Assembly: GCA_010015805.1 (NCBI GenBank)
Contig: ML978133.1
Location: 682,001-746,000 of the forward strand
Length of the DNA stretch: 64,000 nt
Origin: Rhizodiscina lignyota
Lineage: Eukaryota > Ascomycota > Dothideomycetes > Aulographales > Rhizodiscinaceae
Direction: 5' to 3'
How positions within the stretch are numbered: position 1 is the stretch's first letter; each line of letters starts with the position of its first letter. Below are positions 23,843-56,119 of the stretch, in pieces. Under the pieces are notes generated by a model. That model saw only the letters and a list, made by a program, of their open reading frames with translations. It had not been told where the DNA came from and ran no database searches. The position numbers and the translations under genes were made by a program.

Positions 23843-26298
23843 ATGGCGCCCGCGCGGAAAAGGAGCAGGCTCGAAAAGGCGAAACACTTCCTCAAGGGGG
23901 GCGGTGTGATTCGCGACGATTCTGACGACGAGTTGGGCGATGTCGACCACCCTTGGCAGTGGATCTTCGCAGAAAAGACCGCAAATAGTGGCGACAAGAG
24001 CTTGGACAACAATGCGTCGACATCACGAAAGCGAAAGGCCTCAGCAGCGGGGCAAAATGAGAAGCTCATTGTGGGCGCCCAGATGGGCTCGTTCAAGTGC
24101 AGGATCGGCGATGCGGTTCTCCTGAAAGCGGAGGGAAATGAGGCCTGGGTGGGCCTGATATGCGACCTTTTCGATGGCGAGGACGGCGAGAAGATGGCGA
24201 ATTTCATGTGGTTCTCCACTCCCAAGGAGATACGAAATAAGATTAAGAAAAGGACCGATGTGATGGAGGTGTGTACCCGAAAGCATCGTTTCGTCTTGCC
24301 CACCCATGGAACTAACCGTTGGAACAGAATGAGCTCTATCTCACACCGTCGTGGGACGATAATCCGTTGACAACAGTCAACGGAAAAGCAGCTGTCGTCT
24401 CACCCACAGCATTCGCAAAGCGCCACCCCAGTGGCAGGGTACCGCGTACCTCAAAGGACTTTGGCAAGATATTCGTATGCAGGCGGGGCTGCAACACCCG
24501 CACAGCCACTTATACTGAAGAATTCGTCTGGGAGGACCTCTATGGGGGCGAAACGGATATCCCGGCATTAATTCAACTGGTTAAATCACAGACAAAGGCA
24601 ACCCGAAAGCGCTCCGGGAAGGGTGCCCCGCCTGACAGAGATACCGAAGAATACATAGCGGCTGACGAAGAAGATGACGGCGTGCCGAAGACACCAAAGA
24701 AACGCCGCAGGCTCAACGACGCCGCGACCACGCCGACTCCGCAACGCGCAAAGTTGACGCCAAAGAAGTTTCTCACACCGACGTCGAAGAGGATAGTGAT
24801 CAAGAAACCGCTCGAATTCACTCCCCTCGGAACCCGCATTCTGTCCCCTTCTGTGCTGTCATCCCCTTTCCAGCTCGCTCGGAATCAGCTTCATGTTTCC
24901 GCAGTTCCAGCATCCCTTCCCTGTCGGGAAGATGAATTCTCGGAAGTTTACTCTGTGCTCGAGAAGGCCATCACCGATGGCAGTGGATCGTGCATCTACA
25001 TTGCTGGCACGCCGGGCACCGGCAAGACTGCCACCGTGCGAGAAGTCGTCGCGCAGCTCAATGCGTCGGTGCTGGAGGAGGAGCTTGACGACTTCATCTT
25101 CGTCGAGATCAACGGTATGAAGGTCACTGATCCGCACCAGTCATACTCGCTCTTATGGGAAGCGTTGCGAGGTGATCGAGTCAGTCCCTCGCACGCTCTT
25201 GAGCTGCTTGATCGAGAGTTCTCCGCTCCGAGCCCGCGACGCGTGCCGTGCGTGGTGTTGATGGACGAGCTCGACCAGCTCGTCACCAAGAACCAGAGTG
25301 TCATGTACAACTTCTTCAACTGGCCTGGCTTACGCCATAGCCGGTTGATCGTGCTTGCAGTGGCTAATACTATGGACTTGCCCGAGCGGACGCTGAGCAA
25401 CAAGATTAGTAGCCGTCTCGGTTTGCACAGGATCACGTTTAGAGGGTACACTCACGATCAGCTCATGCAAATCATCCAGTCGCGCCTTGAGAATGTGCCT
25501 GGTAACATTGTGCATCCAGATGCTGTACAGTTTGCGTCGCGCAAGGTTGCCGCCGTGAGTGGTGATGCACGTCGCGCACTTGACATATGTCGTCGAGCGG
25601 TGGAGATTGCGGAGACGGAGGCTCTTGATGCTAATACCAATTCTACTAATGAAGATGATGCCCCACTGCCTGACACGCCCAGCAGGACTGGCCGAGGTTC
25701 CAAAGCATCTAAAGGGACAAACTCCAATGCTGGCGCAGAGTCGACATTGCAGAAGAAGGCGGCACTGGCCCCCAAACCGGGAATTGTTACAATCGCCACC
25801 ATCAAACGTGCCATCGCAGAAGCAACGTCCAGCCCGCTGCAGCAATATCTTCGATCCCTACCCCTTGCTTCGAAACTCTTCCTCGCTGCGTTGCTTGCGC
25901 GAATACGAAGGACAGGCATCGCGGAGGCTGTGCTGGGCGACGTCGCCGACGAAGCCAAGAGACTTGGCACCATGAGCCAACTCAAAGACGTCAAAGACTC
26001 TCTCCTCGTCGAAGAAGCATGGGACAGCCTTGGGGCGAGCAGGACGACGCTGGCAGAACTGAACAGCAGCGCTGTAAATGTCGCCGGCGCTACGAGGGCC
26101 CATGGAGCAGCTGGGGATAAGGTCGCCCGGGTCTTGGGTATGAATTCCGCCGCAGCTGGCCTGCTGGAGGCCGGCCTGATAGGGATGGAGTCACGCCGCG
26201 GGGAGAGGGTGGGCCGTATTCAATTGACCGTAGGCACGGAAGAGGTCTTGCTGGCATTGAGGGACGACGACAGCGTCAAGGGCTTGGGGTTCGCATAG
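23843..26298 (+). CDS. ORC1: Origin recognition complex subunit 1
   Basis: Exons 23843-24268 and 24328-26298, about 798 aa. It is the largest ORC subunit, the AAA+ ATPase that binds replication origins and, with Cdc6, loads the MCM helicase. An N-terminal BAH domain (about residues 85-215, with GDAVLLKAEG...AWVGLICDLF and FVWEDLYGG) binds nucleosomes. A basic, phosphorylatable linker follows (TPKKRRRLNDAATTPTPQRA). The AAA+ module has Walker A GTPGTGKT (about 370), Walker B VVLMDELDQLV (about 451) and sensor-2-like SGDARRALDICRRAVE. The C-terminus is winged-helix-like. The single 59-nt intron joins DVME to NELYLTPSWDDNP within the BAH domain. Upstream in-frame codons exist to 23540, but the MAPARKRSR start fits the family. 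Confidence 0.96.
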
Positions 26299-27201: not shown

Positions 27202-28446
27202 CTAGTACTTCTGTCTACCTATTGTGGGCTTCCAATCGAGCGGGTGGGTGTCTGGGGTAGCTTCGTCGTCTGGTTTCCACACCTGTATGGCCTTGTCCGC
27301 TCCGCCTACTAAAAGCCTAAGGCCCGTTTTGTCAAACGTCGATACCAACGAGCCGTTTTCTGCCTCGAGACTTCCGGGTTGCGCGATGGTATCTTGCATC
27401 TGAAACCTGTGGCCCGTCTTCCAGTCCCAGAATGCCACGGTGCCGTTGTCGCCCCCACTAAACATGACGTTGTCCTCGTTGACGGCGATGGTGTTGATGA
27501 CGGTGTTTTGTCCTTCGAAATTTTGCATGAATGCTCCCTCGGGGCATTTCCACTGCTTAATGACTCCGGTGGAAGCACTAGCGAAAGTGAACTCGGTAGG
27601 GTGGACCGCTAAGGACCGCACGCCGCGCTTGTGGTGCGTCAATGTGACCATGGACTTGCCTGCTGCCAGATCCCAGAGGCGCACGGTATGGTCAAGGGAC
27701 GCGGAAATAACTTGTGGATCTGCTTCCTGGCACTTTACATCCGTCACTGTTTGCTTGTGACCGCTCAAGACGTGAATGTTGCTCCTTGTCCGCATATCCC
27801 AGACTCTTGCTACACCATCACGACCACCCGTCACCAGCACATCGAGCGTCGGATGCAGACTGAGGGTGTAGACACCTGACAGATGGCCGTGGTAATGCCG
27901 TATGACCTTGTTCGTCTCCAAATCCCAGCACTTGACCATCTTATCCTCGCCACACGAGAACAAGTACGGATGTCGTGGCGAAACCGCCAGTCCTCTCACT
28001 GTGGAAATGTGACCGGTCATTGTGACCTTTAAAGCGCCCGATGCGAGATCCCAGATCTTGATTGTCCTGTCGCCCGCACCAGAAGCGAACCATTGATTGT
28101 TCGGTTCCACTGCCAATGCGCGCACCCATCCCAGATGCCCCGATAGCACTCTGAACAACTTCCACGGCGCATGCCACTCTGGCTTCGGTTGCCGTATCGA
28201 CATTTCGTGCTTTCGCAACGTGAGCGCAGTCGATTGCGATGTGGACGAGGTGGATGGGGTTGCGCCGTTTGGAGCTTTTGGGCCTTGGTCTGTCTTGGGC
28301 TTCTTCCGCTTCGCGAGCGCAGTACTTTGTGATTGCTGCATCCGCTTGCCCAGTGCTGGTGGGAGTTCTATGACATCTTGGTATTCGTTTCGTAGGCGAA
28401 CGGAGCGAGATATGTCGTCGGGTTCGGAGAGAGCGATGGGCGCCAT
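27202..28446 (-). CDS. PRP46: Pre-mRNA-splicing factor Prp46/PLRG1 (WD40)
   Basis: Single exon, 414 aa. It is a component of the NineTeen (Prp19/CDC5L) complex of the spliceosome and acts in the nucleus. After a basic, disordered N-terminus ([16 protein letters not shown]) comes the family hallmark [20 protein letters not shown] (near residue 90-110), then seven WD40 repeats with clear GH...WD spacing (for example [21 protein letters not shown]-like [48 protein letters not shown]). It ends KPTIGRQKY. The length suits fungal orthologues. It is intronless, while most neighbours carry introns. The ATG at 28446 gives [11 protein letters not shown]; no better start lies upstream. Confidence 0.96.
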
Positions 28447-29920
28447 CTTTGCTCTAGTGGCGCGGTTGCGCGCCAGACAGTCTCTTTTATATCTCAGCTG
28501 AAAAGAGGATCGGCACCAACTGAATGCGCGTATTGGCGGGCAGTATGCTTAATTGTAGCAAATCCAAGCTCGTCCTCGGTACTCTCAAGAGGCAACTGAT
28601 GTTGGGGAGGTGTCGAAGGTGCGAAAAAGGCGCGGGCTTGGTCGACTGAAACACTTGAAATAGGAGCTCGATGCGCCTTGGTGGATGTATATCTCGTGTT
28701 ACGCGTGAAGTTGGAGGTTGTTCATATATGTAGATCTGAAGGCGCTGAAGCTTCTCTTGAAATCGCAACCGTTCGAAATATTTTGCCGAATATTAGCCGC
28801 CGCGCGCACGCGTTCAGCCTCAACTCGGCACGCGACGAAGGTTGTAATGGACTTTCACCCACACTCTTTATTCACAATTTAAGCCTCAAAGACACTTCGA
28901 CCTCGAGCAGACGCAGCGACGGAGAGTGACGAAGAGTAACGAAGAGTAACTCGAAGTTTGAAAGCACCTCTTGACGACGCCACTCATGGCAGCGAAGACA
29001 GTTCTAAATCTTCGCTTAGTTGGCTGTTTCATTGATGTCGCAATGTCTAAAGAAAATGTGCCTCTTCTTAAGCTGTCGTCGAGCTTTGGATGTACTCGAG
29101 GTTGGAGCAAGTTCTGTCTCTACGCTAACCGATCATAATCATCGATGCGCTCAAAGCTGGAGTCTGCTCATATACCACTCACCAACTTGTAAAGTTTGCA
29201 ACCTAGCGTCGCTTGCCTTCTTCTATGGACGCCGCAATTTGGCCCTGAAGCACAGGGCTATGGCCGCTTAGCCTGTTCGACAGACATCGCACGGGCTGTA
29301 AAGGCATGTTATCGTGAAAGTTTCATCCAGTTCGACCAAGTGCGTACCGTTTGTGGAAACTCTCTCTTTTCTTTTATTCCACTTCCTCAACTGGATTCGC
29401 TGTATATGCGGTGGCGTTTCATCTGGTGCTTCGAACATTCGTCGACTCAAGTCGTCAGATACCCCAAGCGTGGCTGTTAATATGGTTCCATTCCACTCCG
29501 CCGGGGTCCAAGCCTGAAGACATCGCAGAAGCCACCGACTTTCGCTCCTTCGCTTAGATTCACTCGTTTACTCTCACTTTCGCGCTTCATTGACTGTATG
29601 GAGACTAGCAATTGGTTTCGGTTAATACGCGCAAGTGGTAGAACGGTCACAATTCTCTTTAAATAGAGTCAAGATTGATTTGAGAGCTAGCTAAATCGCT
29701 AATTGAAAAGCAGCGCCAAATAGGAGATGTGTCATATCGTAAATGTTCCATATATTCCTTAGAGTGGCCGTCGAACCAAACAAGATCGTCTCCCTCTGCC
29801 TTCGTCCGATAGTAACCCCAGCAATAGAGCAACCAACACCTTGAGAGATACCCACAATCTGTTTCCAAACCCACGCCGACAAGGATGAACCAGGATAATT
29901 CTGTCAAACCATAACTCCTA
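28447..29920. other. Intergenic, no gene seen
   Basis: About 1.5 kb between the PRP46 start and the 3' end of the next minus-strand gene. It has only short frames. A short direct repeat (GAAGAGTAAC-like, three units) lies near 28918-28952. Confidence 0.45.
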
Positions 29921-34185: not shown

Positions 34186-37100
34186 CTATTCAACTCCAGG
34201 CGCACTCATTACGCCCCTCCCAAACCATTCACTGATTGTTCCAAACTTGTCTCTACTCCTTCCCAAAGCGTCCATGAACAGATCATGTCGATCCGCGCTC
34301 TCGTCCTGGGCCTTCCTGATCGCCTTGACGGTGGCGTTCTGCGGCGCACAAACTGGACACTCGACCGCACCATCACCCTCCCGTGTAATGTCCTCGCCAT
34401 TGCTCGCATTGAGACACCGCTGATGGAACGAGTGTTTGCACATGAAATGCACCGTCGGCAGGTCAAGGCTTTGGCCACACGCCGAGCATCGCGTGGCTTG
34501 AAAGACCGCCGGCTTGGTAATGAGGGTAGAGATCTCGGTGCGCTTGGCGTCCGTGTCGGTCCGGAAGGTTTGGATAAGGCGTCGATTGCTTGAGATCTCT
34601 TGTCTCTCGCGCTCGATGGAATTGCTCAGGTAGGACTTAATCAAGCCCATTGTCGCCACGCCGTTCGTACTCAAGGTTTGAATTACTTGGAGCGGCGCCA
34701 TGAGTCCATCCGCGTCAATTTTCTTCAAAACAGCATCGAGCTCGTCGCCTGCTTCTTCGAGAATCGCGGGGCTGGAAGTGAAGTAGGCCAGTGCTGCTGG
34801 ATACAACTGCGGTTCTTCAGGACCGTATTTTCGGAGTGCTTTGATGGCCCCTGCTGTATCCTTGGCTGCGGTGTACGACCTGAAGATATCAAATCGCAGT
34901 CCCTGTTGCTCGCGAACGAGCGTAGTCCCTGCCCGGAAGTTTTCAAGGGATGAAAGCAATAGCACATTTGACGTGTCTATCGGTATCTGCACAAAGGGAA
35001 TTAGCATTGCACGGTTGTCGGCAAAATGAGGACCCTCACCTTTTGACTACCAATCAGAGCTTTAGCCTTGTTCTCCCACTCTTCTCTGTCCTCGCCCTTC
35101 TTCTCGGTTGCTGTATGCAAATACATTTCAAAAAGAGTAGTGTACAGATCACGCTTGTCCTCTTCTTCAATGTCATCCGACTCGATGCAGGCTTCAAGGA
35201 ATTTGATGAAGTTCTCTGGGTGATCTACAAAGGCTGAGAATGCGGTTCTTGGTTTCGGTATCTCATATTCTGGGGGAGGCTCGTTGTTGGCAGTCTCAAT
35301 CACTTGGGCCTGGCTTAACGTCGTTTTCTGATCCCCTTCACTACCAGGCGTTACGACAGCGCTTGTGCTCATGTACGGCAGCGGAAGGAGGGCGGCAAGG
35401 TTTTGGACTGCCGTGGACGCTATGCCTCTTTCTTGCCCTTGCGTGTTCGGACTCTGGGTGATGACTATGGCATCCTTTTTAGGGCGATACTGTCCGGTGT
35501 AGTAATCGACGAATATTTGCGTAGTATCTGCTGAGCAATGCTCGAGCAATACCGTTGCGTATTTCATGAGATTGTGATATGCCTTTCCACGTTAGTTCTC
35601 ACTTGTGAGGATCGCAAATGTTTAGACTCACGTCGGATGGCCCTAACCGCCAAATGTACGCAAGTGCTTCGGCGTACTTCTTTGAGTCCTCAATCAAAAT
35701 GTCAACGACCAACTCATGCTCGTCGTGCTTCCTCGCGAGATATGCCGCCTGATCATAGTAGCTACCTTGACGGCACATTGATATTGCCGTATCAAGGTCA
35801 AATTTCAGGTCTCCAGGAGACTTGATGAATTCTTCAAGCTTTTGGACATCCTTCAGTTTTGCGTAGCAGTTGAGAAGTAGCGTGGTGTGATCTGATGTGG
35901 CTTTGTGATGATCGTGCAATTCTTCGAGGTAATCGATGAGATTGTGGATTCTTTGGGTGTCCAGGTACTTCCTTATTACTTGTGACGGTTCTGTATTATC
36001 GATTGCCCTCAAATACATCTGCATCGCAGTATCGTAGTCTTGCTTCTGGTACAGAAAATCGCCATATTTGCGATATATGACGTTCTGCTGGGCAATGTTC
36101 AATCCGCTCTTCTTCGCAATATCGATAGCAAGGATGTAGAGGTTTCTTTGGTACAGAGCCTCTAGCTTTTGATGCATAGTCTTCTCTCTGTACCGAAAGA
36201 GTTTGCCGTCGGTTGTCAACAGGAAGAGATCACCCCACTCTTGGAAGACCGCTTGAACGGGTGAGGACAAGGCCTCTTGATGAGCAATGTACTTTGGATC
36301 CGTACTCAGAAGCGTGAAATTAGATGTGCTGAATAGGTCATCGGCTTGGCCGTTGCCAAACGTGCGCATAGTACTGCCTCGACCGATCGCATTAGATTGC
36401 GGAGGCGACGCCACCGCGAGGTAGTTCTTGAATGTGGTGATTAACTTCTTTGGGATCTCATACGGAAAGACTGAGCGACCACCTCGAGAACCATAGTAGT
36501 AAACGGCATCATCTCGAGCAACGACGATGTCGGATGTACTCTTTTCTACGGTCATGCAGTGTACTGCACAACCTGTCTCTTCTATTGGTCTCGGGGGTTG
36601 TCCTTGTCCACGGCCGGAGATGACTAGGGTGAGAATCCGGCCTGTCGTTGCTATGTAGAGTGTCGTCTGATTTCCCTCGCTGAATTCTATGCCAGTGATT
36701 GGTTCTTCAGACTCAAAGACTGTTCGTTGTTTCGTCCCTCGGTCATGGATGAGATCGCCCCTGATGACTTTTACAGCGCCGTTCCCAAAACCCAGTGCAA
36801 TTTGAGATAAGCTATCAAGCGCGGCAAATGCTGTGATTGGAAACTGTTTCTTTCCCGTCTGGACGACTACGGAGCTTAGGCACTGCGGCATGCCGCTTTT
36901 CTTGTCGACCTTATCGAGCGCCCATACTCTGAGGACTGGCTCATTGGAGAGATCTTCTGCAACAGTCACAAGCATAGAGGTCCCTTGGACTTGCTTCATA
37001 TGCGCAATAGACGCGCCCTCATGAGCCTGGAATGATCGAACGACCTTGAATGCATTCGATAGGATCCGTACCACTCCTTCGGCGCTTCCAAGAAAGACAT

Positions 37101-37423
37101 TTTCAGAGCCCGATGCTACGCAGGTAATGCTTCCTTGCTAAAGGGGCATCAGATGAATTCAATATGATCCCTGAAGAGTCATACCTCAAATATCGATGAG
37201 CTCTCATCATCCGGAAGCTTGATCTGCGTAACATCGAAGAAGCGGAACGCTTTCCACTGCCTCACTGTTAGCGCTGGGTCTTTATTACCAACACTTCTGC
37301 GAAGCCATGGAGCTCTCAGAGAAGAACAGGTCGGGGAAATGGGTTTCTGCCATCGACCATGCAAAGTGCATGATGATAACAAGGACTGCAATGTCCATAT
37401 CTACTTACTGAGGTCAACGCCAT
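34186..37423 (-). CDS. VPS11: Vacuolar protein sorting protein VPS11 (HOPS/CORVET core)
   Basis: Exons on the minus strand: 37423-37409, 37256-37185, 37137-35632, 35582-35040 and 34986-34186, about 978 aa. It is a class C Vps core subunit shared by the CORVET and HOPS tethering complexes at endosomes and vacuoles. The start MALTS|WKAFRFFDVTQIKLP matches the family. It is followed by an N-terminal beta-propeller-like region (GSENVFLGSAEGVVRI, FQAHEGASIAHMKQV), an alpha-solenoid with clathrin-type repeats (YGDFLYQKQDYDTAMQMYL, LARKHDEHELVVDILIED) and a C-terminal RING-H2 finger (CSACG...MCKHSFHQRC...CPVC). The first coding exon is only 15 nt and its intron is 152 nt; the acceptor at 37257 is needed to avoid a stop. 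It is divergent from the YRA1-like gene over 629 bp. Confidence 0.95.
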
Positions 37424-38052
37424 CTCACCTAGCCATCTCTCCTGGACACAACGCACAAAAGATAGATAATCTGACTTTCAAGAGTAAGTGCAGCTACACA
37501 TTTCACGACACCATGGCACAGGCGATGTTGTTCAAGGTGCTCGTCAAGGTCGTGCTAGCGCGGGAACACATTTTGGGACTAGCGTGAAGCTCCACGTGAC
37601 GTTAGGCAGCGGCTACACATAGGGCTTAGCGCGTAACAGCGCCTCGCGCCTTCGCCCCCTTCAACTACTTGTTCTTTCTTTCCCTTCCCCTTCCTTCCTT
37701 CCTCCTTCAACATCAACAAGAAACCACGCACCCGTCACAACAACTTCTTGTTCTCTTCGAACGAGCCTCCTTCATCTACTCTCTTGCGACTTCGCGCTCG
37801 ACTCAGTCGCACCGCCTCTCTAATTTCACTTTTGAGGCCCAACACTTCACGCGCGCAGCCTCGCCGTCCACTGCCGCCGTAACGCGAACACAACCTCAGT
37901 TTGCATAACGAAACTCAGCCATCATCCTCCAAGCGCTCTCTTTTGCTCCGAGCATTTGAATTTCGCGACTTCACGGTCCCAAATCTCATTACACGCACTG
38001 TACAATCGCCTCAGAGCCACATTCACTCTTCACCGTCACCTCAACTCACAAA
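37424..38052. promoter_or_regulatory. Shared promoter region of VPS11 (-) and the YRA1-like gene (+)
   Basis: The two ATGs point away from each other across 629 bp. The right half is a long C/T- and CA-rich leader (from about 37650), typical of a 5' UTR of a strongly expressed fungal gene. No TATA box was recognised. Confidence 0.55.
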
Positions 38053-39989
38053 ATGTCTTCCTCCAAGCTTGACCAATCCCTTGATACCATCATGGGCGAA
38101 AGCCGCCAGTTCGTGCGCCGCAACAATCGCCGCGTGAGAGGCGGAGCCAAGGCTATCGCAACACCCGTTGGAGGTGTGCATAAGCCAACGAGGGCGGCAA
38201 AGGCCGCGGAGAAGGTCATGGCTCCCACTGGAGGTCCAAGGTCTGGCGAGGGCAAGATCCAAGTCAGCAATCTTGTAAGTCACGCTCAAAGCTCACCGTT
38301 AAAGACGTATCGCTTACTGTTCGTAGCCGATGGATGTGGAAGAGAACCAGATTAAGGTATGTTAAGTGCGAAGCCAGCACATGCCTGGATTCTCCTCGCT
38401 CCTCGCCGTTATTTTACGATCGACGTTCAGTATATTTTGGACTCTTGTTGGGATCGGTATACCTCTGCCCTTCGAACACCGAAGGACCATTACTTGGGCC
38501 GAGGTCGCGTCGTTGCTCTTGCTTGAGATCTTTTCTAGCGGCATGATGCAGAGCATAAGACGACCTACGACGCCTTCATCCTGTGTATGCGCCTTGAAGC
38601 TTGTTGAGCAATAGATACGCCTGGCAAGCGTGCTCCGAGTATGGGCTGCGGATGAACAAGTACAAAGCAGATGGTCGCACGAGCTACTTTAATTTCTGGA
38701 ATGTCTCTCTCCAGTCGGGTGCGAGATAACAGCAGCATATGAATCAGCGAGCGGAGCAGTGATGAAGCAGTTCAGTATTCAATCCTTTGGACCTTCAAAC
38801 GACGTACATCTCACCGCCACCGATTCCTTTTCACTGCCTGTCGGCTTATTGCAACGATCTGCGAATGGCAACGTAGCATCGGCTGCGGAGCATACCCGCC
38901 GTCCCTTTATCGACACGGTCACAAGTTCAACGAGGACATCTTCCATCGACCACTCCAGCAATGCAAGGCTTCAGAACCATGAGGGCACTCGGCAAATATG
39001 CTTGGGACCATGATGGCTGTGTATCCTACCCTCTACGCAGTTCTCAGGTTTGTGGGAGAGAGGAAGATTAAAGAATGTTACCAATCATCTTCACTCTTTA
39101 TTGTGGATAGAGATGGCTCATGATGTGGATGATTTTGGGGGAAACGCGTTGCTGGGCATCGGACCTATTGGATTTCAACTGGACTGGACCTGGATATACT
39201 AACTGACTGCTCCCTCGCTGACCATGTGCTGCTTGTCCGCTGGTAACGTGGCGTGGCGATCATTTTGGCGAGCCGATCCCGCCACTGAGTTCTCTCTACC
39301 GTGTTCGCGATCGATACCCGGCGCTGCTATTCTATATCCGCACGCACCATTTTTGAAGAAGCTAAACGTTTGCCCAAATAGGATTACTTCCATTCCACGA
39401 TTGGCCCAGTCAAGAAGGTTCTCCTCACCTACGGCCCCAACGGTAAGAGCCGTGGCGTGGCTACCGTCATCTTCCACAAGCATGACAGTGCTGTCAAGGC
39501 TGCCAAGGATCTCGATGGTCTCAAGGTCGACAAGCGCCCCATGAAGGTATGCAATATTCAGTTCTCGTCTTTGCGCACCACATTTCTGACAATGAAGTAG
39601 GTCGAGCTCCTCGTCGCCGCCAAGGAGGTCCCCAACCCAGTTCCTGCAAGGAGCCTCGGAGATCGCATCGAGTAAGTTTCCAGAGAGTGCCTTCAAATTT
39701 GATCCGCACTAATCTTATCTTCAGCAAGCCGAAGTCCGCTGCCAAGCCGAAGCCTGCAACCGTTACCAAGCCTACCGGTAAGGGCACTGGTGGTCGTCGT
39801 GGCCGTGGAGGTCGTGGCCGCAACGTTGGTCGCGGCAAGCCGAAGACTGCAGAGGAGCTCGACGCAGAGATGGTCGACTACTTCGGCACCGACGCCAATG
39901 GCACCAACGGCGACGCTGCGATGGGTACGAACGGTGGCGCTGTCCAGCCTGCTGGCAACGCCGATGCTGGCATGGACGAGATCATGTAA
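38053..39989 (+). CDS. YRA1: mRNA export adaptor of the YRA1/ALY(REF) family
   Basis: Exons 38053-38274, 38327-38356, 39382-39546, 39601-39671 and 39725-39989, about 250 aa. It couples mRNA to the TREX complex and the Mex67 export receptor in the nucleus. The N-terminus has the REF motif that binds the Sub2/UAP56 helicase (SSKLDQSLDTIM), then a basic variable region. One RRM runs over about residues 69-145 (IQVSNLPMDVEENQIK|DYF, then GKSRGVATVIF as RNP1-like). An RGG box (GGRRGRGGRGRNVGRG) follows, and a conserved end motif (KTAEELDAEMVDYF) recurs in the family. Intron lengths are 52, 1,025, 54 and 53 nt. The long one splits the RRM, yet the residues either side join without a gap. Read-through of that intron would stop two codons later. 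Confidence 0.93.
38357..39381 (+). other. 1,025-nt intron within the YRA1-like gene
   Basis: Donor GTATGT at 38357, acceptor AAATAG at 39376-39381. A perfect TACTAAC branch word lies at 39199-39205, 176 nt before the acceptor, and a closer GCTAAAC at 39361-39367. No coding continuation, snoRNA box pair or repeat could be made out inside with confidence. Confidence 0.85.
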
Positions 39990-41609
39990 ACGGCCTATCG
40001 TCGCCGTCTGCACAGTCCAAGCTTATCAGGATGAGTTTGCGATAGGAGTTGAAATTGCCCGGGTCTGCGGGAGGATTCCACTTTGTATTAAGAGATTTCG
40101 ATGGGATCACTTGATTTCATGCATGCTTCTGTTTCGGTTCACAGGAAAGGCGTAAGGGGAATGCACAGCCAATACGTGGGAAGTAAGGGGATTCTGCATC
40201 GAAGGGATCAAACATCATGTCGACAGGCACACAAGCTATCTCGAAATGACAATCAAGTACCAATACCATGATGTCCACTTTTGATTGGTACCATTCCTCT
40301 CCTGGAAATCCCCTAGCCCCGTCGCGTCGGATGCGAGCCGCAGCGGCATGTGGCGTTTGTGCGGAAGCTGCCCTCTCGAAAACACCACTCCGCCGATCAC
40401 CCCATCGCTGTGTTCGAGATTTAACGCAAATTGTGGGGTTGAATAGGAATGATAGATAGCTCCGGCCAATACCCACCTATCATGTTCATGCGGAGGACGG
40501 GGAAGTGCTGGAAACACTTTCACAGCAGCTCTGATTCTTAGTACGTTCTCACAATGAAGGCCAGGTTACAGCTCCATCGATAGGCTACTGCAGGCCGCGG
40601 CTAACATCGGCGGAGCGTTGACTTAGTCGCTTTCAGCAAGAGAGCTCCTATAGCACGTGGCTTTTTCTAGTTACTGATCATGCACTTAAAGTAGCTGCCT
40701 TTCGGCCGTTCGACATGAGACTTCGGGGGGATGTTGAGGAACTGCTTTGTAAAGGAGGAAAGCGACAACACGATATCTCCCGAAGGAGTCACCAAATATT
40801 CCCTTGCACAGCATGGATTCTGTTCAATATGCGACGTTCCTCATCCCCGCAAAATGTCAGAATGTCACTGCGGCTTACTCTCCGCACAAGTACTGCATTT
40901 GCTGTTTCTGCTGCTATGCACGGTAGATGGATGAGGTGGATTCCAGCTTTCAGCTGGAACATTCCGATGAGCTTGACTTCTTTTTACTCTCATTATATCA
41001 GCAGTGAGATAGCTGAGGGCGTCAGCTTTGCCAGCCTCGACCGTTTCGGAAACAGGAAACGGAAATGCTTTCGTGCAGGAGGGTTCGATTCCAGAGGTCC
41101 CCTTCGCGCGGAATACTGCCGAGCTGGTATCGCGAAGACCCCGTAAACAGCTCGAGCTCGACCGTCTTGGCGGCGAGTGTAGAGAGGTTTTGGAGATAGG
41201 GACGCACAAGTAGCTCCTGATGCGCCCCTCCATGCCCGCAATGAGCGGGGTAACCTCATCGATGGAGCTTCATGACGCTACAAGATCCATACCACCGAGG
41301 ATGGTGCACCAACCAAAGGAGCGCGCGGTGCTGCCCCCATTCGCCACGGTTGGGGTTTCGGCGGAGGTAGAGAGGTTGGAGCTATTCGAATCTAAGCGCT
41401 GGTGTTCTCGACTTGACGCAATGCAGCGCGGAGCGCTGGAGAATTTTCATCTTCAGGCAGTATAAAGCGTCAAGCCTTGCCCCGCTCGGTAGCTGACGTC
41501 GACTTTATCCCTCTTCACATAATTGTCAGCTGCGACTACCACTCCCTTATTTCAATTCATTGATACCCACCCACATAACCTGATCACATTCCACACCACT
41601 CTGCAAAAA
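39990..41609. other. Intergenic between the YRA1-like and ALDH genes
   Basis: About 1.6 kb. It holds a doubtful small two-exon gene candidate at 40731-41007 (listed separately) and the ALDH promoter and leader with CA/CT-rich sequence just before 41610. Otherwise nothing was recognised. Confidence 0.45.
40731..41007 (+). CDS. Doubtful small gene candidate
   Basis: An ATG at 40731 opens 53 codons up to a GTACTG donor at 40890; joining to 40927-41007 (acceptor GGTAG) gives 79 aa. The peptide contains CSICDVPHPRK and CHCGLL, two close Cys pairs, and an acidic amphipathic end (LEHSDELDFFLLSLYQQ). The 37-nt intron is shorter than any other in the window and no family is recognised. It may be a chance frame. 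Confidence 0.2.
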
Positions 41610-43316
41610 ATGACGTCCATAAAGCTCAAGACGCCCACGACTGGCGAGTTTGAGCTCCCAACCGGACTGTAAGTGTTTTTAAGCTTATCGAACTGGTGCG
41701 GTCCTCAGCACTTTAAATTGTGGCGCTCCCGTCGCAAGTGTCGTGTCATATTTTAATCCCGTGGCTTCACGGCCATTCCAACGCGAGATCCGGGCAACTA
41801 TCTGCGCAATTACTAACATCTTTGTCATACAGCTTCATCAACAACGAGTTCCAAAAAGGCGTCGACGGCAAGACATTCGAGGTCATCAACCCCACAGATG
41901 AGAGCGTCATTTGCTCCGTCCACGAGGCCACTGAGAAGGATGTCGATCTCGCAGTCAAGGCCGCCAGGCAAGCCTTCGAGGGCTCATGGCGGAAGGAGTC
42001 ACCCGAGAACCGTGGCAAGCTGTTGAACAAGCTAGCCGTTCTGTTCGAAGAGAACATCGACACTCTCGCCGCGATCGAGTCGCTCGACAACGGCAAGGCC
42101 ATCACCATGGCCAAGGGTGATGTCGGCATGTGCGCCAGCACACTCCGATACTACGGCGGCTGGGCAGACAAGATTGAGGGCAAGGTCGTCGACACTACTC
42201 CCGATACCTTCAACTACATCAAGAAGGAGCCAATTGGTGTCTGCGGTCAGATCATTCCCTGGAACTTCCCACTGCTCATGTGGGCGTGGAAGATTGGCCC
42301 TGCCATCGCCTGTGGTAACTGTGTCGTCCTGAAGACTGCTGAACAGACTCCCCTCTCCGCCCTGTACGCCGCCAAGCTCGTCAAGGAGGCTGGTTTCCCA
42401 CCAGGTGTCGTCAACATCATCTCTGGCTTCGGCAAGGTCGCCGGTGCCGCCATCTCCTCGCACATGGATATCGACAAGGTCGCTTTCACCGGCTCCACCG
42501 TCGTTGGCAGGCAAATCATGAAGGCGGCGGCCGGCTCGAACCTGAAGAAGGTCACCCTCGAGCTGGGCGGCAAGTCCCCCAACATCGTCTTTGAGGACGC
42601 AGACATCGACAACGCTATCTCCTGGGTCAACTTCGGCATCTTCTTCAACCACGGCCAATGCTGCTGCGCTGGTAGCAGAATCTACGTTCAGGAGAGCATC
42701 TACGACAAGTTCGTCCAGCGCTTCAAGGAGCGAGCACAGCAGAACAAGGTCGGCGACCCATTCAAGCAGGACACTTTCCAGGGCCCGCAGGTCTCCCAGA
42801 TACAATTCGACCGCATCATGAGGTAAGACTCTCTTCACCCAAAACAGAAGTAAGATTTCTGACGAGTCATCCAGCTACATCGAGCATGGCAAGCAAGAGG
42901 GCGCACAGGTCGAGATTGGCGGCAACCGCATCGGCGACAAGGGCTTTTTCATTGAGCCCACCATCTTCAGCAACGTCAGCGAGGACATGAAGATCATGCA
43001 GGAGGAGATCTTCGGCCCCGTCTGCTCCATCAGCAAGTTCAAGACCAAGGAGGATGCCATCGCCCTCGGCAATGGCACCACCTACGGCCTCGCCGCCGCC
43101 GTGCACACCTCAAACCTCAACACCGCTATCGAGGTCTCCAACGCCCTCCGCGCTGGTACCGTCTGGGTCAACACATACAACACGCTGCACCACCAGCTGC
43201 CGTTTGGCGGATACAAGGAGAGCGGTATTGGCCGTGAGCTCGGCGAGGCGGCGCTGGATAACTACACGCAGACGAAGACGGTCAACATCCGGTTGGGCGA
43301 TGCGCTGTTCGGTTAA
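41610..43316 (+). CDS. NAD(P)-dependent aldehyde dehydrogenase (fungal cytosolic ALDH type)
   Basis: Exons 41610-41668, 41833-42822 and 42875-43316, 496 aa, the usual length. It oxidises aldehydes such as acetaldehyde to carboxylic acids, in the cytosol (no targeting signal seen). The motifs are all present: [20 protein letters not shown] (cofactor loop), [12 protein letters not shown] (Rossmann turn), the general-base Glu in [14 protein letters not shown], the active-site Cys in [20 protein letters not shown] and [16 protein letters not shown]. It closely resembles the mould allergens Cla h 10 and Alt a 10 as I remember them, and A. nidulans aldA. Intron 1 is 164 nt and intron 2 52 nt. The A-rich CAAAAAATG start suits high expression. 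It converges on the esterase gene. Confidence 0.95.
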
Positions 43317-52539: not shown

Positions 52540-55500
52540 ATGGTCCGTTTCTCTCGCTTCTTCACGCTTGCCGTTTCGTGTGTGTCTTCGTTTGCGGCCA
52601 TTGCTGAGGCCGCTGTAGTTGCAAGAAAGCCTGCCATATCAATTGACCCTACGTCTGATGGGCTGCAAAATATTGTGACATGGGATGAGCACTCAATTTT
52701 TGTGCGCGGCGAGCGCGTGCTCTTCTACAGTGGAGAATTCCACCCATTCAGGTCCGCTTCCTGCTATTGTTGCATGGAATATGAAGAGTGACACTATACA
52801 GATTGCCCGTAGCAACGCTGTATTTGGACGTATTTCAAAAGATACGTGCACTAGGATACACTGGAGTCTCCTTCTATGTTGATTGGGTCAGTCAACGCGA
52901 TCTACCATGACCAGACATCAACATAACGATGCTGATATAATGGCTCCCAAAAGGCACTCCTCGAAGGCAAACCAGGGGAATATCTTGCAGAAGGAGTCTT
53001 TGACCTGAAGCCATTCTTTGATGCTGCAAAGGAGGCTGACATATATTTACTTGCTGTGAGTTAGCTTGACTGGGTAATTTGGCGATGACGAAGGCTAACC
53101 TTTGCACAGCGACCGGGCCCATACGTAAGTCTCTCGGCCATTGGCATCAGAAACCGCTGACTTTCAATTCGAAGATCAATGCAGAAGCCTCCGGTATGCA
53201 AATCGGATCATCCCACGAGAATGAGCTGACAACGGTTTAAGGTGGAGGCTTTCCAGGATGGCTCCAAAGGATCCCCGGCTACCTTCGTTCATCGAATGCG
53301 AGCTTCCTTGAAGCAACACAAAAGTACTGAATCGAGTTCGATTGATCAGATCATGTACTAATGCACATCTAGCTATGTAACGAACACTGGTCACATCATC
53401 GCCGAAGCTCAAATCACGAACGGCGGTCCTGTCATTCTGTTCCAGCCGGAGAACGAATATGCTGGAGGTGATGATGGGGGCTACTTTGCCTATGTTCGAG
53501 ACCAATGGCGCAAGACCGGCATTGTGGTCCCGCTGATAAACAACGACGTCAGTCATTCAGGACGTCAAGCACCAGGCAAGCCAGGTGGTGTAAACATCTA
53601 CGGCCACGATGGATATCCCCTTGGGTTCGATTGCGGACATCCGTTCACTTGGCCGGAAGGTCAGTTGACGGCGTATATGGGCGATTGGCATACGAAACAT
53701 CTTGAGTTCAGCCCCAAGACACCATACAGCATTGTCGAGGTACAGAAAATGCACAACAAAAAGCTCCATTATAGCTTACAATCATTTAGTTTCAAGGCGG
53801 ATCGTTTGATCCTTGGGGTGGACCTGGCTTCGAGCAATGTGCGATTCTGTTGAACATGGAATTTGAGCGCGTCTTCTACAAGGAAGATTTCAGCTTCGGC
53901 GTGACAATTTTCAACATCTACATGGTAAGGCTCCGTGAATATCAATGAGCTGAAATAAGCTAATTGCAAAAGACATATGGTGGCACGAACTGGGGTAATT
54001 TAGGACATCCAGGTAAGTACCTTACGCTGATTGATATTATAATAAGGGTAATTTAAGTGTTTAGGTGGATATACGAGTTACGATTATGCTGCAGTTATTC
54101 GCGAGGATCGCATGGTGGACCGCGAGAAGTACTCAGAAGCCAAGCTCCTCGCCAACATGCTCCAAGCCTCTCCGGCATACATCACAGCGACTCCTGGCAA
54201 TGCCACGAACGGGACACTTGCATCAACTGCAGCAATCACCGTTACTCCCCTCCACGACGAGAAGTCAGGGACGCGATTTTACGTCGTTCGACATGCCGTG
54301 TACAATACATTGGATACGACGGATTACAAGCTTACTGTTGACTCGAGCGTTGGCACGATCACGATCCCACAGCTGCAAGGAAGTCTGTCATTACACGGCC
54401 GCGACTCGAAGATTCATGTTGTCGATTACGATGTCGGCGGCACGAAGCTGCTATACAGCTCGGCCGAGATTTTCACGTGGAAGAAGTATTCATCTTCGAC
54501 CGTCCTTGTTGTGTATGGCGGACCAGGAGAGCTGCATGAAATGGCATTCAAGACGAATAAGAAACCCTCTGTCCTAGAAGGCTCTGGTATCACTTTTGGA
54601 TCGAAGAAGGGAGCCTATATCTTGAACTTTGAGACTAGTACATCGAGACGTATTGTTCAAGTTGGAAGCCTATTCGTCTATGTTCTTGGTAAGAAAACCT
54701 GGAATTTAGTATTTTATTGAGACCGCTAACAGTTTTCAGATCGTAACTCGGCATACAACTACTGGACGCTCAAGATCTCCGATGACTCCTACGCCATCGT
54801 CAAAGCCGGCTATCTGCTGCGAACCGCTTCGCTCTCATACGGTACTTTAGCATTGACTGGAGACTTCAACGCCACTACTGAGGTAGAAGTCATCGGTGCA
54901 CCGTCCTTCTCACGTTTGACGATCAACGGCAAGTCCGTTCAATCTTCATACTCCAAGAAGCACGGATCAACTTCCACCACAGTTCAGTACCAAAAGGCTA
55001 CCCCGAAGTTGCCGAACCTCAGAACGGCAACATGGCACTATATCGACAGTCTGCCAGAGATCCAGTCATCCTATTCCGATGCCGACTGGACGGTCGCCGA
55101 TCACACAAAGACAAACAACACGCACCGGAAGCCAGTACTTACCCCAAAGGTTCTTTTCTCGAGCGACTACGGCTACCACACCGGAAGTCTTATCTATCGC
55201 GGCCACTTTACTGCCAATGGAGAGGAGAAGACGCTCAAGCTCTGGACCCAAGGTGGTTCAGCGTACGGCATGTCTGCATGGCTCGGGGATACGTTTCTGG
55301 GCTCATGGAACGGCGCTGACTACGCCGAGGAATGGAACAGCACATTTACCCTACCGAACAGCATCAAGAAGGGCAAGAAGTACATCTTCACGGTTCTGAT
55401 CGATGTCACAGGTCTCGAGGAGGACTTTACGCCCGCCGAGTAAGTTCCCTTCCCCTTCACACTTCCCTCTGCCAAAATACTGACACCATCCAAGCGAACA

Positions 55501-56119
55501 AATGAAAGAACCCCGCGGCATCCTCGACTACTCTCTGTCTGGCCACCCCAAGTCCGCCATCACCTGGAAACTAACCGGTAACCTCGGCGGCGAATCCTAC
55601 CCCGACAAGACGCGCGGCCCGCTCAACGAAGGCGCTCTCTACGCCGAGCGGCAAGGCTACCACCTCCCCTCCCCACCCATCTCCTCGCCTGGCTGGAAGA
55701 CAGTCTCTGGTGGCCCGCTCAAGGGCATCACCTCCCCCGGTGTCGCCTTCTACACCACCAGCTTCAGCCTCGACATGCCGTCGGGCTACGACATCCCTCT
55801 CTCCTTCACCTTCAACAACGGCAGCGCCACGGACGCGGCAGGGCGCAGTCTCGCGTACCGCGCGATTCTGTACGTGAATGGGTACCAGTTCGGCAAGTAC
55901 GTGCATAATGTCGGCCCGCAGGACACGTACCCTGTGCCTGAGGGGATTCTGAATTACCATGGGGAGAATTGGGTTGCGGTGGCGCTGTGGGCGTTGGAGA
56001 AGGGTGGGGCGAAGTTGACGGGTTTGGACTTGGGCGCTGATGCGGTGATTGTGAGCGCACTGGAGCCGATCACAAATAGTCCGATGCCGGGCTGGGAGAA
56101 GAGAGCTGGGGCGTACTGA
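52540..56119 (+). CDS. lacA: Secreted beta-galactosidase, glycoside hydrolase family 35
   Basis: Twelve exons: 52540-52751, 52802-52886, 52954-53055, 53110-53124, 53175-53193, 53242-53323, 53373-53739, 53790-53924, 53973-54012, 54065-54688, 54740-55439 and 55495-56119; about 1,001 aa, normal for fungal LacA. It removes terminal beta-galactose from plant cell-wall polymers outside the cell. A signal peptide ([20 protein letters not shown]) precedes the TIM barrel: [31 protein letters not shown], acid/base Glu in [11 protein letters not shown], nucleophile Glu in [16 protein letters not shown], then [21 protein letters not shown]. Beta-sandwich domains follow. Exons of 15 and 19 nt encode part of the active-site strand. 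The first donor (GTCCGC) is weak. All joins restore the family sequence. Regulation is not visible. Confidence 0.94.

Follow-up and report, generated by a model that had tools for sequence, protein, structure and literature searches.

Why does an mRNA-export gene with introns of 52, 54, and 53 nt also carry one of 1025 nt, and how does that oversized intron relate to the long intron by which baker's yeast limits the expression of its own YRA1? Long YRA1 introns have been described in several yeasts. The first intron of Yarrowia lipolytica YRA1 is reported as 850 nt (PMC2911113), introns of S. schoenii YRA1 as 850 and 748 bp (PMC13148404), and hemiascomycete YRA1 homologues are described as having a long intron, with a branch site that is divergent in almost all species (PMC2911113). 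For S. cerevisiae, the form that retains the intron is stated to be translationally repressed and to decay via Edc3 (PMC2864733), and the structures predicted in the intron are given as conserved in the Saccharomycetaceae only (PMC4937481).

The fate of the retained transcript has been followed in Yarrowia, where it is reported as visible on Northern blots only in mutants of nonsense-mediated decay (NMD) (PMC2911113) and where retention rose 27-fold in a upf1 deletion as measured by q-RT-PCR (PMC6351623). Loss of the exon-junction protein Y14 lowered retention there (0.58; PMC6351623), so that exon-junction-dependent decay is unsupported in Yarrowia, and its authors regard the S. cerevisiae Edc3 route as probably not conserved in that yeast (PMC2911113). 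Among the literature matches listed, none reports a long YRA1 intron in filamentous ascomycetes, and a splicing paper on Cladosporium fulvum names Yra1 in a reference only.

Here, we describe the YRA1 gene found in a 64,000-nt stretch of DNA (the window, in whose coordinates all positions are given), and ask what its long intron is, where it lies relative to the yeast intron, and what could account for its length.

Gene model and intron sizes

The gene occupies 38053–39989 on the forward strand and encodes an ALY/Yra1 protein of 250 aa from five exons with 753 nt of coding sequence; the spliced frame is complete, and all four introns run from GT to YAG. The product matches the Pfam families RRM_1 (residues 71–138, 2.1e-14) and FoP_duplication (residues 180–217, 3.3e-6), and its alignment with REF2 in the PDB spans residues 4–145, from the KLDQSLDTIM stretch onward. 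In the PDB, its top-scoring sequence is THO complex subunit 4 (3.1e-13), another name for the ALY protein. With a central REF-type RRM and conserved N- and C-terminal boxes, the predicted protein has the makeup of an ALY/REF/Yra1 mRNA-export adaptor, and the gene and its style of introns lead us to infer a filamentous ascomycete as host. Among viral contigs, protein searches gave 19 stretches that fit a pattern and no confirmed relative, and among bacterial and archaeal contigs, where 138 of the 250 residues were used, they gave 591 stretches, again with none confirmed.

Exon 1 (38053–38274) encodes the ALY/Yra1 N-terminus and runs into the RRM, exon 2 (38327–38356) adds 30 nt and is phase 0 on either side, exon 3 (39382–39546) carries the bulk of the RRM, and exon 4 (39601–39671) is followed by exon 5 (39725–39989) with the RGG-rich region, the C-terminal box, and the stop codon. 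Three of the introns are short and have a branch candidate close to the acceptor: CTTAC at 10 nt as the closest in intron 1 (38275–38326, 52 nt), CTGAC at 11 nt in intron 3 (39547–39600, 54 nt), and CTAAT at 12 nt in intron 4 (39672–39724, 53 nt). The second intron (38357–39381; donor GTATGT, acceptor TAG, phase 0) measures 1025 nt, which bears out the original prediction of a single YRA1 intron about 20 times oversized. Exon 2 is itself a microexon whose skipping would keep the frame and delete ten residues of the RRM, making a further non-productive isoform possible.

For comparison with other genes of the window, we used a short-intron finder limited to 45–160 nt, with a branch word required no more than 45 nt from the acceptor and a score of at least 7. 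It kept eight introns of 47–80 nt out of 24 candidates, two of them from the YRA1 gene, and all eight have a CTRAY word 10–18 nt from the acceptor, a spacing to be read alongside the finder's own demand for a nearby branch word. When the search was extended to 400 nt, seven candidates appeared, three of them short (scores 15.4–16.2) and four longer and weak (252–351 nt, scores 2.8–5.4). The claim that most introns of the window are under 100 nt agrees with the eight that were kept, within the 45–160 nt range over which it was tested.

Intron boundaries and predicted outcome of retention

The frame of exon 2 closes at an in-frame TAA (38363–38365, forward strand) and that of exon 3 is shut upstream by a TAG at 39379, so coding can extend no further than 38363 and must restart at 39382, and the removed segment must be either one 1025-nt intron or several introns flanking hidden exons. 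Nineteen YAG triplets lie inside the intron, of which 18 were examined as acceptors (the one at 38377 was omitted as too near the donor), and all 18 lack a CTRAY branch word within range. Loose donor and acceptor words allow nine hidden exons of at least 15 nt that would keep the frame, with codon scores of -0.21 to 0.09 versus 0.05 to 0.35 for the real exons, the two ranges overlapping at exon 5. Both the bare acceptors and the low codon scores speak against the alternative, named alongside the original prediction, that a hidden coding exon sits between two short introns, and a single 1025-nt intron is the better reading. Two open reading frames inside the intron (106 aa on the forward and 108 aa on the reverse strand; codon scores 0.06 and 0.02) had no Pfam match and were not accepted as genes, the low codon scores being weak evidence given the overlap at exon 5.

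If the intron is retained, translation adds Val-Cys and stops at the third intron codon, which yields a product of 86 residues ending within the RRM, the length of about 86 that had been predicted. Two more exon junctions lie downstream of this stop, so the retained transcript would be shaped like an NMD target.

Intron position relative to S. cerevisiae YRA1

The S. cerevisiae YRA1 intron is reported to start at nt 286 (PMC2864733) and to be 766 nt long (PMC3454408), so that yeast exon 2 begins at nt 1052. A published exon-junction primer encodes DAVREFF and the primer for1062 encodes SQVGGVQ (PMC3454408). If the two primers overlap by one base, with nt 1062 both ending the first and beginning the second, nt 1052 opens the E codon. 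On this basis, which is published numbering and primers, the yeast junction falls between DAVR and EFFASQVGGVQ in phase 0; it assumes that the primer name counts from the ATG, which is consistent with 286 plus 766. The primer overlap also fits the S. cerevisiae Yra1 protein.

In the gene studied here, the long intron sits between NQIK and DYFHSTIGPVK, also in phase 0. The joined yeast peptide aligns with IKDYFHSTIGPVK without gaps over 13 columns, four of them identical, with a score of 29 that none of 2000 shuffles reached. By this alignment, the 1025-nt intron and the yeast intron are at the identical codon boundary and in the identical phase. The parallel with the long yeast intron, for which a comparison of positions had been proposed from the outset, is firmer than first claimed, as codon boundary and phase (from the published numbering and primers) both match. 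Because identity of position and phase is what common descent would lead one to expect, common ancestry is favored over two origins. Yeast YRA1 carries a single intron, so of the four introns here the shared one is the oversized one.

Branch site and YAG-free stretch

All three RCTRAY words of the long intron are clustered in 39198–39222, and TACTAAC (39197–39203) together with two CTGAC words makes up a proposed distant branch-site cluster at 39197–39222. Measured to the acceptor, the branch adenosines of TACTAAC and the two CTGAC words are at 179, 175, and 160 nt, and no YTNAY word of the long intron puts a branch A nearer than 160 nt. TACTAAC is thus far upstream, as first noted, although the distance given then (176 nt before the acceptor) becomes 179 nt when taken from the branch A to the acceptor's last base. 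The cluster lies in a stretch without YAG (39111–39378) that reaches to the acceptor TAG and measures 271 nt with the acceptor included. Four RAG triplets (39272, 39289, 39358, and 39361) stand between cluster and acceptor, so the exclusion applies to YAG only.

We compared this arrangement with shuffled introns, using branch-site statistics that were chosen after the sequence had been read. No YAG-free run of such length appeared in 5000 dinucleotide-shuffled introns, and, across both strands of the window, only 3 of 3456 YAG-to-YAG gaps reach it, its own gap counted. Among 5000 shuffles, 0.32% packed three RCTRAY words into 25 nt and 2.6% had TACTAAC anywhere in the intron. None of the 5000 placed TACTAAC over 100 nt from the intron's end and followed by no YAG, and when any RCTRAY in that placement was accepted, as a looser test, 0.6% qualified. 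A real branch site in TACTAAC with a long YAG-free stretch behind it is more likely, on these counts, than a stray word.

Hairpins that would shorten the path from branch site to acceptor were considered and dropped, the effective distance being equal to that of shuffles (as short or shorter in 200 of 300, 103 of 200, and 77 of 200 shuffles for the three branch sites). Another YAG-free run in the window, of 292 nt (55412–55703, forward strand), holds ACTGAC and ACTAAC words; it lies mostly inside the open frames 54730–55443 and 55484–56119 and is probably coding.

Proposed role and comparison with known systems

The reading that we favor, with a probability of roughly 0.55, is that the 1025-nt intron is the filamentous-ascomycete counterpart of the yeast YRA1 regulatory intron, inherited and kept long because its length would make splicing slow and controllable. 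Under this proposal, the spliceosome would use the distant branch site and locate the acceptor slowly; when Yra1 is abundant, a larger share of the transcript would keep the intron; the retained RNA, stopping after codon 86, would be cleared by nonsense-mediated decay; and Yra1 would thereby settle at a set level. Autoregulation of this gene by its intron is plausible. NMD would be the likelier decay route here than Edc3, since the host appears to be a multi-intron filamentous fungus, and, given Yarrowia, the budding-yeast kind of decay may not apply.

The gene has in common with S. cerevisiae YRA1 the gene family, the codon boundary, the phase, and the possession of one oversized intron. The branch sites differ: that of S. 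cerevisiae is reported to have G at its first position (PMC3454408), whereas the TACTAAC here is perfect but 179 nt away. With Yarrowia YRA1 it shares a long intron in a multi-intron gene, and the removal of the retained form by NMD, which is Yarrowia's, is proposed here; the Yarrowia branch site, TGCTGAC, is described as three bases from the acceptor motif (PMC2911113), in contrast to the distant cluster of this intron. Human exons with distant branch points offer a further comparison, being defined by AG exclusion zones and linked to alternative splicing (PMC1431707). As in those exons, the branch words here are far upstream and the stretch behind them is poor in competing acceptors; unlike in the human zones, YAG alone is excluded and four RAG remain, and this is a single fungal case seen in sequence alone. 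The long intron may therefore work like a distant branch point with an AG exclusion zone, and we do not assign it as a member of that class.

An oversized intron at the very boundary of baker's yeast's self-limiting intron implies that this form of gene control may be very old. A wider reading, which we offer tentatively and at less than even odds, is that the Yra1 feedback intron predates the split between budding yeasts and filamentous ascomycetes, and that the filamentous brake is a perfect branch site, rather than a poor one, about 180 nt off with a YAG-free guard. If that is true, the regulatory outcome was preserved while the splicing signal was rebuilt. If both intron and brake are ancestral, the autoregulatory intron would have held its position through the yeasts' heavy intron loss, with an altered splicing signal and different routes of decay (Edc3 for S. 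cerevisiae, NMD for Yarrowia), and it would provide a direct test of why a few introns persist in genomes poor in them. A branch point some 180 nt away in a natural fungal intron, if real, would also be a useful substrate for studies of how the spliceosome searches for acceptors. A long YRA1 regulatory intron is a kind already known; the distant branch site and the filamentous extension would be new if they hold.

Contents of the intron and alternative explanations

Searches for content that might explain the length of the intron found no RNA family, no significant structure, no inverted repeat, and no convincing coding ORF. Rfam gave no match at gathering scores in the whole window, and a sub-threshold search of 37000–41000 gave a narK match inside the intron (38567–38621, minus strand, E 0.33) and a mir-999 match (37241–37321, minus strand, E 2.5), both far below gathering score and rejected as chance. 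The predicted fold of the whole intron has a z of -1.25, with 6 of 60 shuffles equally stable, and that of 39205–39381 a z of +0.73. Twelve 150-nt windows of the intron range from z -0.84 to 2.19 with none notably stable; two near z 2, at 38657–38806 and 39107–39256, are less stable than shuffles, and the latter contains the branch cluster. Inside the long intron there is one direct repeat (15 nt, two copies) and no inverted repeat of at least 12 nt, and the window holds no second copy of the intron, with matches of 19–30 nt only.

One stretch of the intron, 39051–39080 on the forward strand, resembles the end of exon 2 together with its donor (38335–38364), 24 of 30 positions being identical and the donor GT having become GA (GAATGTTA in the copy, GTATGTTA at exon 2). 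None of 1000 intron shuffles reached the score of this match, which emerged from several comparisons and was noticed late. Nor did any of 482 real blocks from the rest of the window when compared with exon 2 plus donor, and of 1955 random 40-mers compared with the intron, 1 scored as high. Translated in register, the copy reads FVGERKIK against DVEENQIK in exon 2. Beyond the 30 nt, the flanks at the same offset drop to chance identity and neighboring stretches score at most 16, and no excess was found for the other three exons, nor for exons 1 and 2 whole, against the intron. The stretch is probably a decayed duplicate of exon 2, in which case the intron grew partly by duplication. With GA in place of GT, the copy breaks the usual donor rule and so cannot serve as an exon under it, and it speaks for the origin of the intron rather than for a function.

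The exon 2 copy, the lack of any RNA family or significant structure among the searches above, and a GC content of 0.46–0.56 across the intron's eight full 125-nt blocks all suit a neutral account, in which an ancient intron at the shared position was enlarged by duplication and insertion, is spliced adequately, and regulates nothing. Such an account leaves it surprising that a long YRA1 intron recurs among hemiascomycetes (PMC2911113), that the S. cerevisiae position is shared, and that a YAG-free stretch unexpected by chance (0 of 5000 shuffles) lies behind the branch cluster. We regard neutral enlargement of an old intron as a serious rival, if an unlikely one.

A second alternative concerns the branch site only and is compatible with regulation: the brake would be a weak, degenerate site close to the acceptor, GCTAAAC (39361–39367, forward strand), with TACTAAC unused. 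It is the sole near-acceptor candidate, its distance of 16 nt is normal, and the yeast and Yarrowia YRA1 branch sites are reported to be likewise divergent (PMC3454408, PMC2911113). Against it, the word lacks the consensus final pyrimidine, and its use would leave the TACTAAC cluster and the YAG-free stretch unexplained. We take the distant branch point to be the more probable signal and consider the near-site brake rather doubtful. GCTAAAC may also be a relic of the branch site that the intron used when it was still short.

A third alternative is a poison cassette exon inside the intron. One could be drawn at 38431–38584, between an acceptor TTCAG at 38430 and a donor GTATGC at 38585, and its inclusion would give an NMD-sensitive isoform; the 74 nt of 38357–38430 would then form an intron of their own, whose acceptor has a weak branch word 14 nt away, and the donor GTATGC takes the same form as that of YRA1 intron 3. 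Weak sites of this quality are expected by chance, however, and the results given above for hidden exons (CTRAY in range at 0 of 18 internal acceptors; nine frame-keeping exons at -0.21 to 0.09 against 0.05 to 0.35 for real ones, overlapping at exon 5) make such an exon improbable. Least probable of all is that a hosted small RNA such as a snoRNA accounts for the length, for although fungal snoRNAs may reside in introns and RTGATGW words occur at 38759 and 39120, the second followed by CTGA at 39203, the 38759 word is followed by no CTGA before 39203, and Rfam gave no gathering-score match in the window and no snoRNA at E ≤5 in 37000–41000.

Neighboring genes

Upstream of the YRA1 gene and divergent from it lies a PEP5/VPS11-like frame (35599–37137, minus strand; PEP5 match 5.2e-48), of which the frames 35001–35591 and 34186–35046 look like a continuation, and an aldehyde dehydrogenase frame (41717–42826) lies downstream. 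Farther away, the window holds an ORC1-like frame (24316–26298) with Pfam matches to AAA, lid, and ORC1 winged-helix domains, and a PRP46-like frame (27202–28548) whose best match is chain 9l5r_T at 652 bits, followed by prp5 (566 bits), pleiotropic regulator 1 (506 bits), and PRP46 entries (450 bits).
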